Virus record (IMG/VR): IMGVR_UViG_3300044633_000623
Coordinates: 1-21,459 of that record
Source of the DNA: a virus
Length of the DNA stretch: 21,459 nt
Direction: 5' to 3' (one strand)
This document shows positions 1 to 18,664 of the stretch, piece after piece. The position numbers and the translations under genes are program-made. The first letter of the stretch is position 1. Every line of letters starts with the position of its first letter. Below the pieces are notes generated by a model. It was not told where the DNA came from. It saw nothing but the letters and a program-made list of their open reading frames with translations, and made no database searches.

Positions 1-21
1 CTTGTTCTCGTCTTCAGTCAT
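1..21 (-). CDS. Start of a leftward gene cut by the window edge
   Basis: A leftward ATG at 21-19 is preceded by a strong ribosome binding site (AGGAGG, about 6 nt upstream) and opens a frame reading MTEDENK before the window ends. It overlaps the last 8 nt of the next upstream gene, as do other genes of this operon. Too little is visible to suggest a function. The call rests on the ribosome binding site and the operon arrangement. Confidence 0.6.
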
Positions 22-493
22 TTTTTCCTCCTAGTGCGTTTTGAAGCTCTTTGTTTTTTGCGTTCATCATTCCGGCGAGCATTGAAATCTTTGCCTGTGC
101 GTCTGCGTTTTTTGCCCTGCCAGAATCGGTGAGCATTTCAGACTTGGTGAAGCTGACAGACATTGCCATCCGCTTCATCTCTCGGCCAATCGCCTTGATG
201 CCAGTGTCCACTGCGTATTGGGTTTGAGACTCGGGCTCAATGACCACATACGAGCCTTTGTTGTCGGACACCAAGAGCATGCAGTGGGCTGTCAGTAGAA
301 CGTCCTTGATCTCTGATGTGCATTGCAAGAGTTCAAGATCATGCCTACGAACATCCTCAATGCTTTCAGGCGGCTTGACGTTGCAAAGCTCGGCGATGCG
401 TTTTCTGCTGATGGTGCTACCGTAGGTGATGCCTTCATCAATCAGAATCTTGACGGCCTGTTTCCAAGCTGGGAACAGTGTTGTCTCCTGCAT
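14..493 (-). CDS. Phage protein of unknown function, 159 aa
   Basis: I do not recognise a catalytic motif. The protein is soluble, with no signal peptide or membrane segment. The first ~40 residues look helical, and the C-terminal half (about 95-159) is Lys/Ala/Met-rich and helical. The ATG at 493 shares one base with the stop codon of the preceding RAMP-like gene (TGATG), so the two are translationally linked; a GGAG lies about 10 nt upstream. It ends 8 nt inside the next gene. Position directly after the RAMP-like gene in the same transcript suggests a shared job, but that is inference only. Confidence 0.8.
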   Translation of the reverse strand: MQETTLFPAWKQAVKILIDEGITYGSTISRKRIAELCNVKPPESIEDVRRHDLELLQCTSEIKDVLLTAHCMLLVSDNKGSYVVIEPESQTQYAVDTGIKAIGREMKRMAMSVSFTKSEMLTDSGRAKNADAQAKISMLAGMMNAKNKELQNALGGKND

Positions 494-1062
494 CAGATGA
501 ACTCCACGTTGAAGCGTCCAAAGCGTGGCCGATAGTCACCCAGACCAATCAGAGCGCCGGCATCTTGTACGGCTTTTTTTACCTCGTTGACGTTGACCAC
601 TTCTTCGTTGACAACGATGGTTGCGTTCAGTGACCACTTGCGCAGGATGGGGCGGTAGCGCATGATCTTTGCCATGCCGACCTTGACGCCTCGGCAGTCA
701 ATGTACTCGGGGTCACTCCACAGTTGCTCGGGTGTTTTCTTCTCGTAACCGGCAAACACAAGATCATCCTCCAAGACCTGTACGCCCTGCTTGAATTTCA
801 CGCCGAGCTTTTGCAGCTTGGCTGCGGCGATCAGGCAGGCATCAAGGTTTTGTGCCGGCAAAAAGAAACCAACATCTTTGCGCCAGTAGCAGCCGCCAAT
901 GAACTCACTGCGTGCGATGGCAACGTGATCGTCGTCTGTTTTCTTGCGCTTGCTGGTCAGCTCTTTGTGAGCTTTTGCCAGTGGGTCAAGCGGGTTTGCA
1001 AAACGGTCCGAGTGCATGAGCAAAGGGGCCTTACCTGTCAATTGAACTGCGATTGTTTTCAT
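493..1062 (-). CDS. RAMP/Cas7-like conserved phage protein, 189 aa
   Basis: This resembles a widespread phage family usually left as hypothetical. Three features suggest a RAMP (Cas5/6/7-type) fold: an opening beta-strand with KAPLLMHS near residues 11-18, a central FFLPAQNLDACLIAAAK that parallels the 'lPgssikGalR' helix motif of RAMPs, and a glycine-rich C-terminal loop IGLGDYRPRFGRF. RAMP proteins bind RNA; that activity here is inferred. I chose the ATG at 1062 because AAGGAG sits 6 nt upstream. An in-frame ATG at 1125 would add 21 residues but lies inside repeat unit 0 of the leader. The gene is first in a leftward operon and follows a ~640-nt repeat-rich leader. No catalytic residues are evident. 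Confidence 0.75.
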   Translation of the reverse strand: MKTIAVQLTGKAPLLMHSDRFANPLDPLAKAHKELTSKRKKTDDDHVAIARSEFIGGCYWRKDVGFFLPAQNLDACLIAAAKLQKLGVKFKQGVQVLEDDLVFAGYEKKTPEQLWSDPEYIDCRGVKVGMAKIMRYRPILRKWSLNATIVVNEEVVNVNEVKKAVQDAGALIGLGDYRPRFGRFNVEFI

Positions 1063-1228
1063 GATGTTCTCCTTGGTTGATTGATGCACGCTTTGCATCG
1101 AAATGACACCTCGTTGAAGTGTCATGACGCTACATTAGCCCTTGCCATACCTTTCATCTCCTAGCCCCGGCAATCCGGGCCTTGGCCGACCCCGCCCGTC
1201 CGTTCCCGACCGGTCCCCGCCTTAACTT

Positions 1229-1285
1229 TGGTGTTGCCACCGAAATGATTCCTCGTAGAAGAACCATCACACTGTTAACAGCCCC
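1229..1285 (-). repeat. Leader repeat unit 1 (57 nt)
   Basis: It begins TGGTGTTGCCACCGAA and ends with CTGTTAACAGCCCC on the plus strand. In the leftward RNA its central stem is ATGGTTC/GAATCAT, fully paired only if one G-U wobble is allowed. It is the best match to units 2-4 at both ends; the middle 14 stem positions are the variable part. Confidence 0.85.
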
Positions 1286-1346
1286 TGCCTACCCTGCTGG
1301 TCCATACCGCACCCGGACTCGCCACTCCTAACCTAGCCGTTGCTTG

Positions 1347-1402
1347 TGGTGTTGCCACCGAGATGAACCCTCCGTGAAGATTCATAACGCTGTTAACAGC
1401 CC
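1347..1402 (-). repeat. Leader repeat unit 2 (56 nt)
   Basis: Same ends as unit 1. The leftward central stem is ATGAATC/GGTTCAT with one U-G wobble and loop TTCACGGAG. The GCTG-TTAA-CAGC hairpin here is a perfect 12-bp palindrome. Confidence 0.85.
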
Positions 1403-1461
1403 TCGCCACGCCTTTGCAGGCCGAGCCTGACCGCTCCTCTCCGAGCCACAACCACGCCAAT

Positions 1462-1517
1462 TGGTGTTGCCACCGAGGTGAGCTCTCAATGAAAGCTCAC
1501 AACGCTGTAAACAGCCC
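1462..1517 (-). repeat. Leader repeat unit 3 (56 nt)
   Basis: The leftward central stem is GTGAGCT/AGCTCAC, a perfect 7-bp pairing whose sequence differs at several positions from the other units, so changes on both arms compensate. The loop is TTCATTGAG. Confidence 0.85.
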
Positions 1518-1580
1518 TTGATTTGCCCAGTTTTTCCATGCCCGACCCCGCCCCGCCGCACCGTAGCAGTGCAGTCCAAG

Positions 1581-1636
1581 TGGTGTTGCCACCGAAATGA
1601 CCTCTTGTTAGAAGCCATCACGCTGTAAACAGCCCC
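1581..1636 (-). repeat. Leader repeat unit 4 (56 nt), promoter-proximal
   Basis: The leftward central stem can be read as ATGGCTT/AGGTCAT with two wobble pairs and an 8-nt loop, one base shorter than in the others. It is followed, on the promoter side, by the cleanest CC-every-5-nt tract (CC at 1634, 1639, 1644, 1649, 1654, 1659, 1664 and 1669). Confidence 0.8.
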
Positions 1637-1711
1637 AGCCAGTCCCCGCCTCGCCTCTCCGTGCCGATCCTTGTCCGGTCGTGCCTAGATACATCAGGTA
1701 GGTTGGACTCT

Positions 1712-1741
1712 ATTGTATCTGCTATATATCAGGTTCGTCAA
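1712..1741 (-). promoter_or_regulatory. Leftward sigma70-like promoter for the repeat leader and RAMP-like operon
   Basis: Read leftward, TTGACG (1741-1736) and TACAAT (1717-1712) are separated by 18 nt, each hexamer matching consensus at 5 of 6 positions. Transcription would start near 1705 and pass through all five repeat units. The -10 lies in an inverted repeat, ATTGTATC (1712-1719) and GATACAAT (1747-1754), and a direct repeat ATAYATCAGGT occurs near 1688 and 1724. These are plausible operator half-sites. Confidence 0.65.
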
Positions 1742-2792: not shown

Positions 2793-3137
2793 ATGAGAGT
2801 TGATTTGCATGTTCCGTTTAGCCAAAAGGACTTGGCAAAAAGCAAAGGCGCTCGTTGGGATGCGGCCCGGAAAACTTGGTACGTCATTGACCCCTTGGAT
2901 ATACGCACATTCGCCCTCTGGATGGGGCAGGATGTCAAGGATTGGTATGGCGGCAAGAGGGTAAAGCCATCCAAGAAACAGAAGCCAAAGAACCAGCCCA
3001 AGGTTCACGCGCCAAAGCCTGTGATCACCGGCCCTGCTGTGTTCGTGCCTCTGTGCAACTGCACCACCCCGCCATGGGAGGATTGCGAGCATACAGACGC
3101 CTTGGCTCAAGCAGCAATGGGTGAGATGCTGGCGTAA
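2793..3137 (+). CDS. DUF5710-domain protein, 114 aa
   Basis: The N-terminal third (about residues 3-50) carries the DUF5710 signature: VPFSQKDLAKSKGARWDAA followed by RKTWYV. This short domain occurs in phage and plasmid DNA-processing proteins, often beside helicase or primase domains; its function is unknown to me. A Lys/Pro-rich linker (about 62-84) follows, then a tail with CNC and CEH that could bind metal. I chose the ATG at 2793 because GGAGG lies 7 nt upstream; an in-frame ATG at 2754 would fall in the last helix of the RNA candidate and has no such site. The gene directly follows that RNA and may share its transcript. Confidence 0.75.
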   Translation: MRVDLHVPFSQKDLAKSKGARWDAARKTWYVIDPLDIRTFALWMGQDVKDWYGGKRVKPSKKQKPKNQPKVHAPKPVITGPAVFVPLCNCTTPPWEDCEHTDALAQAAMGEMLA

Positions 3138-3159
3138 AAAAACCCGCACTGTGGCGGGC
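3136..3159 (-). terminator. Terminator at the end of the leftward 4823-3178 operon
   Basis: Read leftward, the stem CCCGC/GCGGG (3158-3154 with 3147-3143) is followed by seven T residues. On the plus strand the same hairpin sits just after the DUF5710 stop codon and is followed by CTTCT, so it may also stop rightward transcription weakly. Confidence 0.75.
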
Positions 3160-3177: not shown

Positions 3178-3369
3178 TCAGCCCTCCAGTCCAAGCATCT
3201 GCACACCTCGGCGAACGGCGGTTAGTACTTGCTCTAGGTTGCCATTACTCAGCAGGATAGGGCTCTTGATGTGCATGGTGCAGCATCCTGCGTCCTCGGT
3301 GCTGAGCACGAACAGGACATTTCCGTCCTCGTCCACGGCCTCTACGCGGGTTGGGTATACGTCGATCAT
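3178..3369 (-). CDS. Small phage protein of unknown function, 63 aa
   Basis: It is the last gene of a five-gene leftward operon. The ATG at 3369 has AAGGAG 6 nt upstream and overlaps the previous stop by 4 nt (ATGA). The first half looks like beta strands (VYPTRVEAVDEDGNVLFVL) and the second like a helix ending at the C-terminus; a CC pair sits at about 29-30. I recognise no family, signal peptide or membrane segment. Confidence 0.75.
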   Translation of the reverse strand: MIDVYPTRVEAVDEDGNVLFVLSTEDAGCCTMHIKSPILLSNGNLEQVLTAVRRGVQMLGLEG

Positions 3370-5562: not shown

Positions 5563-6377
5563 ATAAAGTCATGAACATCGGCGCTCTTGTGATGGACGAG
5601 CGTTTGCAGTCGAGAACAGAGATTAACGAAGAGACGGTATCGGAGTATGCAGATGCCATTGCTGCTGGCGCTGACTTCCCTCCTGTGCTGGTTTATTTTG
5701 ATGGCATCAACTACTACCTGACGGACGGCTATCACCGACTGCTGGCCCACAAGCGTGCAGAGAAGGTATCCATTCTGTGCAACGTGGTTCAGGGTACGCT
5801 GAGGGACGCCGTATTCCACTCAACAGGCGTGAACACCGACCATGGCATGCGCCGCACCCATGCAGACAAGCGCAAGGCGGTGATGACGTTGCTAGATGAC
5901 TTTGAGTGGGAGGGTATGGGCAACGGCCAGATCGCCAAGCATTGCCATGTGTCCCCATCGTTCGTGTCTGAACTGCGCAAGGGCGTTGGCAAAGACACGG
6001 GCGATACGGTGAAGTACAAAACACCAAGCGGTAAGGTGATGGAGAAGAAGAAGGCTGCGGGCCGCGCACCGAAAGAGCCGGAACTCAAAGGCCCCGAGGT
6101 CACACAGCCTAAAGATGATCAGAACCAAGAAGCCATCGACATGCTGCTGGCCGAGAACGAAGAGTTGAAAGCCCGTGTCGCAGTCGTGGCTATGGATGCC
6201 TCACCAGAAGAAAAGCAGGCGGCCACAAGCCTGATTGAAGAGCTGCGTGAGGAGTTGCGCATTACCAAGATCGAGCTAACTGCAGTCAAGCAAAGCCGGG
6301 ATCAGTACCAGTCAGAGAACAGCCAACTCAAGAAGCAAGTGCTGTCTATGCAGCGTCAACTCAAGAAAGCCGAGTGA
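5559..6377 (+). CDS. ParB/Srx-like domain protein with HTH and coiled coil, 272 aa
   Basis: The N-terminal ~95 residues match the ParB N-terminal/sulfiredoxin-like domain: QSRTEINEETVSEYADAI, a PPVLVYFDG strand, then TDGYHRLLA (DGYHR at 56-60). A helix-turn-helix follows at about 122-142 (NGQIAKHCHVSPSFVSELRK). After a Lys-rich linker the last ~85 residues form a long coiled coil (LAENEELKARV ... QLKKQVLSMQRQLKK). Proteins with this domain bind DNA and in some phages act as nucleases or in replication control; I cannot say which here. It overlaps the 49-aa gene by 4 nt and sits just upstream of the helicase, so a replication or partition role is likely. Confidence 0.85.
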   Translation: MNKVMNIGALVMDERLQSRTEINEETVSEYADAIAAGADFPPVLVYFDGINYYLTDGYHRLLAHKRAEKVSILCNVVQGTLRDAVFHSTGVNTDHGMRRTHADKRKAVMTLLDDFEWEGMGNGQIAKHCHVSPSFVSELRKGVGKDTGDTVKYKTPSGKVMEKKKAAGRAPKEPELKGPEVTQPKDDQNQEAIDMLLAENEELKARVAVVAMDASPEEKQAATSLIEELREELRITKIELTAVKQSRDQYQSENSQLKKQVLSMQRQLKKAE

Positions 6378-6425
6378 TCATTGCCCAAGCCAGCGGGCAT
6401 GTGTGCTGGCAGTTGGAGAAACAAA

Positions 6426-7892
6426 ATGGGTTTGGAATTACGAGAGTACCAGTCCGGTTCACTGGATGGTTTGAGAAAAGGCTTTGCTGCCGGGTACAAA
6501 GCGCAGATGCTTTATGCGCCCACGGGAGCTGGCAAAACTGAGATGGCGATTGCGCTACTGGATGCAACCCACAAGAAGGGGAATCGTGCAGCCATGATTT
6601 TGGACCGCATCATCTTGTGCGACCAGACAAGCCAGCGGCTGGAAAAGTACAAGATCGAGCATGGTGTGCTGCAGTCTGGACACTGGCGTTACAGGCCATA
6701 CGAGCACATCCAAGTGTGCTCCGCTCAGACGCTCGAGAAGCGCGGCTCCTTTCCCGGCTTGACGCTGATGATTGTTGACGAGGCGCACGCCATGCGCAGG
6801 CAGACCATTGAGTTCATCAAGAACAACCCAGAGATCAAGGTCATCGGCCTGTCTGCATCACCGTTCACCAAGGGGCTTGGCAACGTGTACGAGCACGTTG
6901 TCAGCACAGTCACAACCAAGGAGTTGGTGGACCAGAAGGTGCTCTGCCCACTGCGCGTGTTCGTTGCCAAAGAGATCGACATGACCGGAGCCAAGAAGGT
7001 GGCCGGCGAGTGGAGTCAGGCCGAGTCCACCAAGCGCGGCATGCAGATCACTGGCGACATTGTGTCTGAGTGGATCAAGAAGACGCACGAGATATTTGGT
7101 CGCCCCCGCAAGACCATCATCTTCTGCTCAGGCGTGGAGCATGGTGCAGACCTGTCGAAAAAGTTCGCCGAGCAGGGCTACAACTTCATCAGCATTTCCT
7201 ACAAGGATGATGACGAGTTCAAGCGCGAGGTCATCGAGGACTTCAGCAAGCCAGACACAGAGATTCATGGCCTGATTGCCACCGATATCTTGACCAAAGG
7301 CTTTGACGTTCCTGACGTGATGATCGGCGTGAGCGCACGGCCATTCAGCAAGTCACTGTCGTCTCACGTCCAGCAGATGGGCCGGGTCATGCGCGGCAAC
7401 CCGGATAAAGAGTTTGCGGTGTGGCTGGATCACGCTGGCAACTACATCAGGTTCCAAGAGGACTGGGAAGACATCTACAACAACGGCGTGCATGAGCTGG
7501 ATGACGCTCGCGAGAAGACCAAGAAGGAAAAGACCGACAAGGAGAAGGAGGCGGCCAAGTGCCCCAAGTGCGGACACTTGTGGGCCGGAGGGTCGGACAC
7601 TTGCATTCACTGCGGCTATACCCGCGAGAAGCGCAGCATGGTGGAGTCAGTACCGGGAGAAATGGAGGAGCTCAAAGCGGCGGCCTCTCGGGAAAGCAAG
7701 CAAGACTGGTGGTCAATGTGCCAGTACATGGTCAAGTACCACGGCTGGAGCTCAGGCAGAGCCGCCCACACCTACAAAGACAAGTATGGCGTCTGGCCCA
7801 AGGGTCTGGCTGAAACGCCGCAAACCCCGAGCGTAGAGTTCAACAAGGCGGTGAAGGCTGCTCTAATCCGTTACCTAAAGGGGAAGCGGTAA
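6426..7892 (+). CDS. Superfamily 2 DEAH-box helicase with zinc ribbon, 488 aa
   Basis: It is an ATP-dependent DNA (or RNA) helicase of the type found in phage replication blocks. Motifs in order: Q-like EYQS near 8, motif I APTGAGKTE (31-39), motif II DEAH (118-121), motif III SAS (143-145), motif V ATDILTKGFDVPDV (about 285-298), motif VI QQMGRVMRG (316-324). A zinc ribbon follows, with C379/C382 and C393/C396. The C-terminal ~90 residues (WWSMCQYMVKYHGWSSGRA) are typical of phage members. The ATG at 6426 has GGAG 7 nt upstream; a TTG at 6381 is in frame but unsupported. It shares one base with the primase start (TAATG), so the two are coupled. Confidence 0.93.
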   Translation: MGLELREYQSGSLDGLRKGFAAGYKAQMLYAPTGAGKTEMAIALLDATHKKGNRAAMILDRIILCDQTSQRLEKYKIEHGVLQSGHWRYRPYEHIQVCSAQTLEKRGSFPGLTLMIVDEAHAMRRQTIEFIKNNPEIKVIGLSASPFTKGLGNVYEHVVSTVTTKELVDQKVLCPLRVFVAKEIDMTGAKKVAGEWSQAESTKRGMQITGDIVSEWIKKTHEIFGRPRKTIIFCSGVEHGADLSKKFAEQGYNFISISYKDDDEFKREVIEDFSKPDTEIHGLIATDILTKGFDVPDVMIGVSARPFSKSLSSHVQQMGRVMRGNPDKEFAVWLDHAGNYIRFQEDWEDIYNNGVHELDDAREKTKKEKTDKEKEAAKCPKCGHLWAGGSDTCIHCGYTREKRSMVESVPGEMEELKAAASRESKQDWWSMCQYMVKYHGWSSGRAAHTYKDKYGVWPKGLAETPQTPSVEFNKAVKAALIRYLKGKR

Positions 7893-18075: not shown

Positions 18076-18273
18076 ATGGACAATAAAATATTAGAGCTTC
18101 TCAACAAAAGAATTGAGGAGCACGTCAAAAGTCATTCAGAGGCTTTGGTAGTGGGGCAGTCGAAAGACTATGCCGCTTACCGAGAGTTGTGCGGGGTCAT
18201 CCGAGGTCTCCAGACCGCACAGCGTGAAATTGGCGACCTCGTGCGTAAACTGAAAGACGACAATGACGACTAA
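18076..18273 (+). CDS. Small helical protein after the portal, 65 aa
   Basis: MDNKILELLNKRIEEHVKSH, then DYAAYRELCGVIRGLQTAQR and EIGDLVRKLKDD: an all-helical small protein of a type often found directly downstream of portal genes, function unknown. It starts 2 nt after the portal stop and overlaps the co-chaperonin-like gene by 11 nt. Confidence 0.8.
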   Translation: MDNKILELLNKRIEEHVKSHSEALVVGQSKDYAAYRELCGVIRGLQTAQREIGDLVRKLKDDNDD

Positions 18274-18664
18274 CTTTGATGTTCAGGCGGTTGATCTGTC
18301 TGGCCTACTCAACAAAACCGTTGAGGATAAGGCCACGCAGATTCCAGAACCTGCCACTTACCACCTTCTGTGCATGCTTCCAGAAGCCAAAGAAGAGTAC
18401 GAGGGTGGCCTACTTAAGGCCAGCCAGACGATGCAGTATGAAGAGCTGCTGTCATCCGTACTGTTTGTGGCTAAGGTTGGCCCAGACGCCTTTAAAGATG
18501 AGAAGCGCTTCCCCAGCGGCCCAAGCTGCAAGGTGGGTGACTTCATCATCGTGCGCCCAAACACTGGAACGCGAATGAAAATTCACGGAACTGAGTGGCG
18601 GATCATCAATGATGACTCTGTTGAGGCTGTGGTCGAAGACCCTCGCGGCATCCAGCGCGTTTAA
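18263..18664 (+). CDS. GroES-like co-chaperonin, 133 aa
   Basis: The order of motifs follows GroES: an opening strand PEPATYHLLCMLPEAKEE, a glycine-rich segment EYEGGLLKASQTMQYEEL at the place of the GroES mobile loop (EGGLLKA compare SAGGIVLTG), VAKVGPDAF, then SCKVGDFIIVRP, TGTRMKIHGTEWRIINDDSV and EAVVE (compare KVGDIVIF ... [20 protein letters not shown]). Such proteins pair with host GroEL to fold the phage capsid protein, as T4 gp31 does. Position inside the head gene cluster fits. About 35 residues longer than GroES, mostly at the N-terminus and loop. Function is inferred from similarity by eye. Confidence 0.7.
   Translation: MTTNFDVQAVDLSGLLNKTVEDKATQIPEPATYHLLCMLPEAKEEYEGGLLKASQTMQYEELLSSVLFVAKVGPDAFKDEKRFPSGPSCKVGDFIIVRPNTGTRMKIHGTEWRIINDDSVEAVVEDPRGIQRV

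Follow-up and report, generated by a model that had tools for sequence, protein, structure and literature searches.

A probable type II-like VIPR locus in a tailed phage and its putative guide against large serine recombinases

The DNA analysed here, hereafter the window, is the 21,459-nucleotide IMG/VR virus record IMGVR_UViG_3300044633_000623. Near its first position, the minus strand carries two genes preceded by five arrays of GG-containing pentads, each followed by a hairpin module. The features are listed below in the order of the putative transcript, under names taken from VIPR, the system to which the locus very probably belongs.

1712..1741, minus strand: sigma70-like promoter, TTGACG-18-TACAAT, at the 5′ end of the array transcript (10 of 12 consensus positions; shuffles give 0.5 per region; suggestive only)
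1636..1690, minus strand: vrRNA1 guide, NN = TA AC CG AA TC AC GA GA GG CT TG (pentads and target match)
1582..1635, minus strand: vrRNA1 3′ tail, three hairpins (tail alignment, covariation)
1518..1577, minus strand: vrRNA2 guide, NN = CT CT AC GC GG GG CG AT AA TG AA AA (NN shared with related loci L006, L011 and part of L032)
1463..1517, minus strand: vrRNA2 3′ tail (tail alignment, covariation)
1403..1460, minus strand: vrRNA3 guide with one 1-nt phase shift, NN = GT TG / TC GA GC CA TC CT AA GT GA (probably a diverged anti-vipr guide)
1348..1402, minus strand: vrRNA3 3′ tail (tail alignment, covariation)
1285..1342, minus strand: vrRNA4 guide with one 1-nt phase shift, NN = TA TA GT GA CG GC AT CC ... 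(pentads)
1230..1284, minus strand: vrRNA4 3′ tail (tail alignment, covariation)
1142..1221, minus strand: vrRNA5 guide of 16 pentads, NN = GG CC CG AC CG GG CG AA CC TT GG TA GA AA AT AA (pentads)
1083..1141, minus strand: vrRNA5 3′ tail, which stops shortly before the ribosome-binding site of vipr (sequence)
493..1062, minus strand: vipr, RAMP (Cas7-like) protein of 189 aa, phrog_4652 (phrog match 2.4e-67)
14..493, minus strand: vap1-like accessory gene, 159 aa, phrog_5926 (phrog match, homologues in LESphi2 and VpaE1)

Three further features of the window were noted. Positions 2229–2337, in non-coding DNA of balanced G+C content, hold an inverted repeat of 27 nt with a 55-nt gap, which may represent a structured RNA. 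The minus-strand gene at 3366–4112 matches phrog_3704 (1e-71), annotated as a ferredoxin among morons and host-takeover genes, and 18263–18664, between the portal and capsid genes, is a gene that matches the phage co-chaperonin GroES family phrog_3188 (2.6e-8).

The first-pass annotation had reported CC dinucleotides (GG in the transcript) recurring with an exact 5-nt step between 1142 and 1676, and this period proved to be real. Runs at this step start at 1190 (seven), 1322 (four), 1421 (six), 1536 (six) and 1634 (eight). The autocorrelation of CC over the five spacers, on the given strand, gave 42, 39, 31 and 32 pairs at lags 5, 10, 15 and 20, as compared with 16.1 (±3.5), 14.8, 13.4 and 12.0 in dinucleotide-preserving shuffles; this comparison, which the annotation had proposed as a check, left none of 2000 shuffles reaching the observed value at any of the four lags. 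The rest of the window contains a single CC run of at least four at a 5-nt step (2399, four steps), and no such GG run was found on the given strand of the whole window outside the array region. The region is wider than reported (about 1083–1690) because degenerate pentads such as GACCG and GACAA prolong the arrays and because two arrays contain a 1-nt phase shift. Degenerate pentads occur in guides 1, 2, 3 and 5, and phase shifts in guides 3 and 4. The longest intact pentad runs comprise 4–8 units, fewer than the 9–16 repeats per vrRNA reported for VIPR (PMC13142463); with degenerate ones counted, each guide has about 10–16 pentad positions. Neither a BLASTN comparison of the array with GenBank phages nor an Rfam search of the window and 12 array-bearing loci returned a match.

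On the minus strand, from about 1690 down to 1083, the tracts with GG every 5 nt alternate with hairpin modules of 54–59 nt, the first four of which are spaced by 115–119 nt. The elements earlier called spacers and modules are both present; their roles had been missed, the spacers being probable guides, whose NN letters would encode DNA targets, and the modules the guides’ 3′ tails. Each tail contains three hairpins. Among 30 tails, all seven pairs of helix 2 were changed on both sides, and this helix had 58 compensatory cells on the minus strand, as compared with 13.2 in shuffles. Because the covariation includes G–U variants on the minus strand, we take this to be the RNA strand. A second class of tail, with a first hairpin of GCUG-ACAA-CAGC, was seen in L013 and L018–L020; in L013, the ACAACA of the loop region could pair with a UGUUGU further along, which would give a pseudoknot such as that reported for the SUSP1 tail (PMC13142463). 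In Gordonia phage MakoManhole (L171), copies of a tRNA-like minihelix of T-arm and acceptor, GGTGGGGTTCGACTCCCCACC within a longer stem, lie between GG-pentad arrays at 1651–1692, 2983–3024 and 3101–3142; ARAGORN found no tRNA and Rfam no family in them, and they are perhaps vrRNA tails matured by tRNA-processing enzymes.

The arrays accompany one gene. We found 44 relatives of the window Vipr in viral contigs, at 45–100% identity. By the annotation’s own criterion, homologues without the period would have refuted it; in all 44 loci GG-pentad arrays lie beside the gene, upstream in 43 and downstream in one (L047). Among GenBank phages whose Vipr is about 40–46% identical, Pseudomonas phage LESphi2 has arrays upstream, Escherichia phage VpaE1 upstream and downstream, and MakoManhole chiefly downstream of the gene; Medea1 has no array near its Vipr relative. 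Linkage was also evident in a blind scan, in which viral contigs were searched by the pattern (GGNNN)10 alone, a search for such repeats and shared neighbours having been suggested by the annotation: an iterated protein profile recognised vipr at 82 of the 120 stretches recovered, and in the 78 first-round hits the array was always on the vipr coding strand. Only two of about 236 control loci had vipr: 2 of 119 chosen by an unrelated 14-mer, both of which also have arrays, and none of about 117 chosen by a period-7 pattern. The next commonest neighbour family reached at most 9 of the 120 stretches, one further cluster being the antisense of the arrays. The 38 loci without recognisable vipr (among L172–L291) include poly-G artefacts and short contigs, and others may hold a divergent Vipr. 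One stretch (L192, about 6311–6900) contains very long arrays, with up to 43 uninterrupted GG pentads, possibly the staggered arrays of the VIPR preprint. These relatives also refine the repeat unit: the period of five in the proposed (GGNNN)n stands, but position 3 is not free, being a pyrimidine in 93% and G in 0.7% of 3774 pentads, and with positions 4 and 5 nearly free the unit is GGYNN.

The vipr product belongs to phrog_4652, a family to which phrog assigns no function, and is homologous to SUSP1 Vipr (chain in PDB 36pp, 1.3e-45). Its AlphaFold model (pLDDT 90.7) resembled chains of Csm3, Cas7-11 and type VII Cas7 in a structure search, with a best Z of 11.5 and an rmsd of 3.0 over 137 residues. 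Of the options put forward by the first-pass annotation, a filament of RNA-binding subunits agrees well with this Cas7/Csm3-like fold of the adjacent gene product and with the co-purification of Vipr with vrRNAs (PMC13142463). The product of 14–493 has homologues encoded directly behind vipr in LESphi2 (1e-24) and in VpaE1, a SUSP1-like phage (9e-7); we call it vap1-like, with a putative role in DNA binding, the match to the published vap1 resting on the close similarity of VpaE1 to SUSP1. Of the 82 array loci with vipr, just 12 have a recognisable phrog_5926, and we therefore rejected it as an essential partner.

The NN letters are shared between phages to a degree that the surrounding bases are not. 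Guides of different phages carry identical NN strings while their scaffolds differ at up to 12 of the 21 other bases; the guide 1 string AC CG AA TC AC GA GA occurs in eight distinct arrays (the window and seven others, with diverged scaffolds), and that of guide 2 in four. Since chance in-register pairs dominate a pooled position-by-position mismatch tally, which was uninformative, we used a keyed comparison instead. With 8 pentads, keying on positions 4 and 5 gave 16 shared groups, as against 1 and 3 for other position pairs, and with 9 pentads the numbers were 6, 0 and 0. These comparisons indicate that selection keeps the NN letters, not the scaffold. Where the window has GACCG and GACAA, L019 has GGTCG and GGTAA; the retained NN letters suggest that degenerate pentads are tolerated and still selected.

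What guide 1 would recognise can be read from its NN letters. Its first ten dinucleotides fit the codons for Y T R K S T [DE] E G L, which surround the catalytic serine of large serine recombinases. Read with one base skipped per step, its core of nine dinucleotides has exact matches in at least 120 viral-contig stretches, as compared with roughly two chance matches if some 10^11 positions are assumed. At a 2-nt skip no match was found in viral contigs. A related vipr is present in a Rhodoferax MAG, and among 391 genomes around this MAG the core has 15 exact places, about 0.05 being expected from genome size. Neither set of hits is independent, because they lie in one gene family. The reversed guide 1 pattern, our control, had no matches. 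All 126 matched places examined read TRKST[DE][DE]G from the first base; this frame is the longest open one in 105 of them, and in 21 a longer ORF overlaps in another frame. By Pfam, a typical target is a large serine recombinase, with Resolvase (4e-39), Recombinase and a sub-threshold zinc ribbon, and the flanking residues at 15 other sites fit the same family. Counted from the closest ATG or GTG upstream, the site lies at a median distance of 15 codons. In this register NN falls on codon positions 1 and 2 and the skipped base on the wobble position. The tenth dinucleotide, TA, matches the Tyr preceding the core; the last has no match, an exact scan including it giving no hits. Within 3 mismatches, the target was absent from 15 phage records of the clade, most of which have guide 1 or a close relative. 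Large serine integrases are not named as a target class in the main text of PMC13142463, and this class appears to be new.

Other guides of the relatives point to further targets. In contigs chosen only by the guide 1 target, skip 1 gave 54 placements in which these guides matched at 18 of 18 letters, and skips 0 and 2 gave none. A second motif of that recombinase, IVVYKIDRL, is spelled by arrays of L007–L010; both this and the guide 1 site are exact in 14 recombinases, nearly always 213 nt apart. An L015 guide fits DLPKK[VE]WDQ in another gene of the recombinase-target contigs, and the L409 guide TG CC AG TC TG GC AT GT AA fits the antisense of FTIAHELGH, the HExxH zinc motif of ImmA/IrrE-type metallopeptidases (PF06114). 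One L006 guide agrees at 17 of 18 letters with the codons for PIFREWAAE in a rival vipr gene (L201). Guide 3 of the window, with 14 of 18 letters in common, looks like a version of this L006 guide and is probably a diverged anti-vipr guide. Loci that had not been selected for targets showed no clear excess at any skip, except for the L006 guide against the L201 vipr. Our searches yielded no target for guides 2, 4 and 5 and only a weak one for guide 3; guide 2 had no match in the 391 genomes of the Rhodoferax MAG family and guide 5 none in 201 genomes of that family, an exact ten-dinucleotide scan for guide 5 also giving none.

As described in PMC13142463, VIPR consists of the RAMP protein Vipr, a vap gene and vrRNAs made of GGY/NN motifs and a structured 3′ tail; the NN dinucleotides recognise double-stranded DNA with one base skipped per step, and competing phages are repressed. 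Expression, complex assembly and repression were shown there for Escherichia phage SUSP1 and partly for a Pseudomonas fulva prophage, whose targets, according to the main text, are satellites and lysogeny–lysis regulators, respectively (PMC13142463). The window locus shares with these type II systems a homologous Vipr RAMP, a vap1-like second gene, intergenic arrays of GGY/NN guides with structured 3′ tails, the 1-nt-skip rule, and targets in competing mobile elements, other vipr genes included. It differs in tail sequences, in less regular pentads and in the placement of its vrRNAs, all five upstream of vipr, whereas SUSP1 has one upstream and three downstream. Its target class differs too, being large serine recombinases at their catalytic codons rather than satellites or lysogeny–lysis regulators. 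The class 1 CRISPR backbone (Csm3, Cas7) resembles it in subunit fold and in having a guide RNA in a row of subunits with periodic pairing gaps; CRISPR has a 6-nt periodicity, whereas the window has a pentad with the GGY scaffold built into the guide. Class 1 CRISPR-Cas combines identical repeats, unique spacers and several cas genes, whereas we found no tandem array, no CRISPR-like repeat near vipr and no further cas among the scanned genes of this 21-kb record, which may be a fragment.

Because GGY/NN arrays are linked here to a Vipr homologue with a Cas7/Csm3-like fold, we assign the locus to VIPR. We put at about 0.93 the probability that it represents a tailed-phage VIPR system of a type II-like kind, with guide 1 directed against large serine recombinases. 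It fits VIPR in nearly every feature that sequence can test, and only the number of intact repeats per guide leaves the fit uncertain: we observed the period, the vipr linkage, the homology and the predicted fold, as well as tail covariation, NN conservation and the guide–target match.

Other explanations of the pentads fare poorly against these data. The annotation had likened them to the binding sites of TRAP. TRAP is a ring protein that binds (G/U)AG triplets and controls attenuation, with no guide function. The likeness, RNA triplets at about a 5-nt pitch with one per subunit, is one of style only: the window triplet is GGY, and the protein is a RAMP unrelated to the ring protein. A regulatory leader in which pentads seat Vipr or another protein TRAP-style, for autoregulation of the operon without DNA targeting, would suit arrays that lie in the vipr leader with the last tail ending beside the ribosome-binding site; arrays also downstream of the gene (L047, VpaE1, MakoManhole), NN letters that are conserved and match targets, and DNA targeting in relatives (PMC13142463) make it very unlikely. 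Still less probable is a DNA-level repeat, such as a replication origin, a centromere or a phased protein-binding site with about half a helical turn per step. The window does contain phage replication genes and the repeats lie between divergent genes, but the constant orientation of arrays relative to vipr in first-round hits, tail covariation with G–U pairs on the minus strand and NN letters that match targets as a guide RNA all fit an RNA. Two-layer RNA G-quadruplexes with 3-nt loops, also raised in the annotation, agree with (GGNNN)4 in loop arithmetic alone. We dropped this reading, to which we give almost no weight, because a pyrimidine is required at pentad position 3, where G is nearly excluded: a quadruplex could form without this constraint and would be favoured by G, and the variable NN letters carry information conserved between phages.

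A more serious, though still unlikely, reading is that this is a VIPR locus in partial decay, with function left in guide 1 alone or perhaps also in guide 3. It is suggested by the degenerate pentads of guides 1, 2, 3 and 5, the 1-nt shifts in guides 3 and 4, and the failure to find targets for guides 2, 4 and 5; the degenerate pentads nevertheless keep their NN letters, as in the comparison with L019.

Under the VIPR assignment, one minus-strand transcript would contain five vrRNAs, then vipr and then vap1, each vrRNA consisting of a guide of GGYNN pentads and a three-hairpin 3′ tail. Cas7-like Vipr subunits would line the guide, each occupying one pentad, where it would hold GGY and expose NN; the NN letters would pair with double-stranded DNA as xNNxNN..., one target base being skipped per step, and thereby block transcription of the target gene. 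Formation of the ribonucleoprotein, 1-nt-skip pairing and repression have been shown in relatives (PMC13142463) and are carried over here by analogy; we infer that the locus is expressed and active in the window phage and affects its rivals. In coding targets, synonymous changes would give no escape because the skipped base is the codon wobble position. The target of guide 1 would be the catalytic-serine codons, close to the 5′ end of genes for large serine recombinases that rival temperate phages or further mobile elements carry; given what this target is, integration or excision of these rivals would be suppressed.

A broader proposal, which we consider reasonably probable though clearly less secure, is that a widespread phage clade keeps VIPR guides, their NN letters conserved and their GGY scaffolds drifting, against motif codons that rivals could scarcely alter: YTRKS and YKIDRL of large serine integrases, HExxH of ImmA/IrrE and RPxFRxW of rival vipr. 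Such an RNA-guided anti-integration and anti-VIPR arsenal would leave almost no mutational escape, because a wobble-skipping code is combined with catalytic-site targeting.

The VIPR system itself is known, having been described in 2026; the window member and its target appear to be new. VIPR is a newly described, CRISPR-like form of RNA-guided DNA recognition used by phage against phage, and has been proposed to predate CRISPR. With the present locus its range grows to include a clade of environmental phages, and natural variation provides evidence that the NN letters are what selection acts on. A concrete target class emerges as well, that of large serine integrases hit at their catalytic codons, and this choice suggests how guides may stay effective against diverse rivals.
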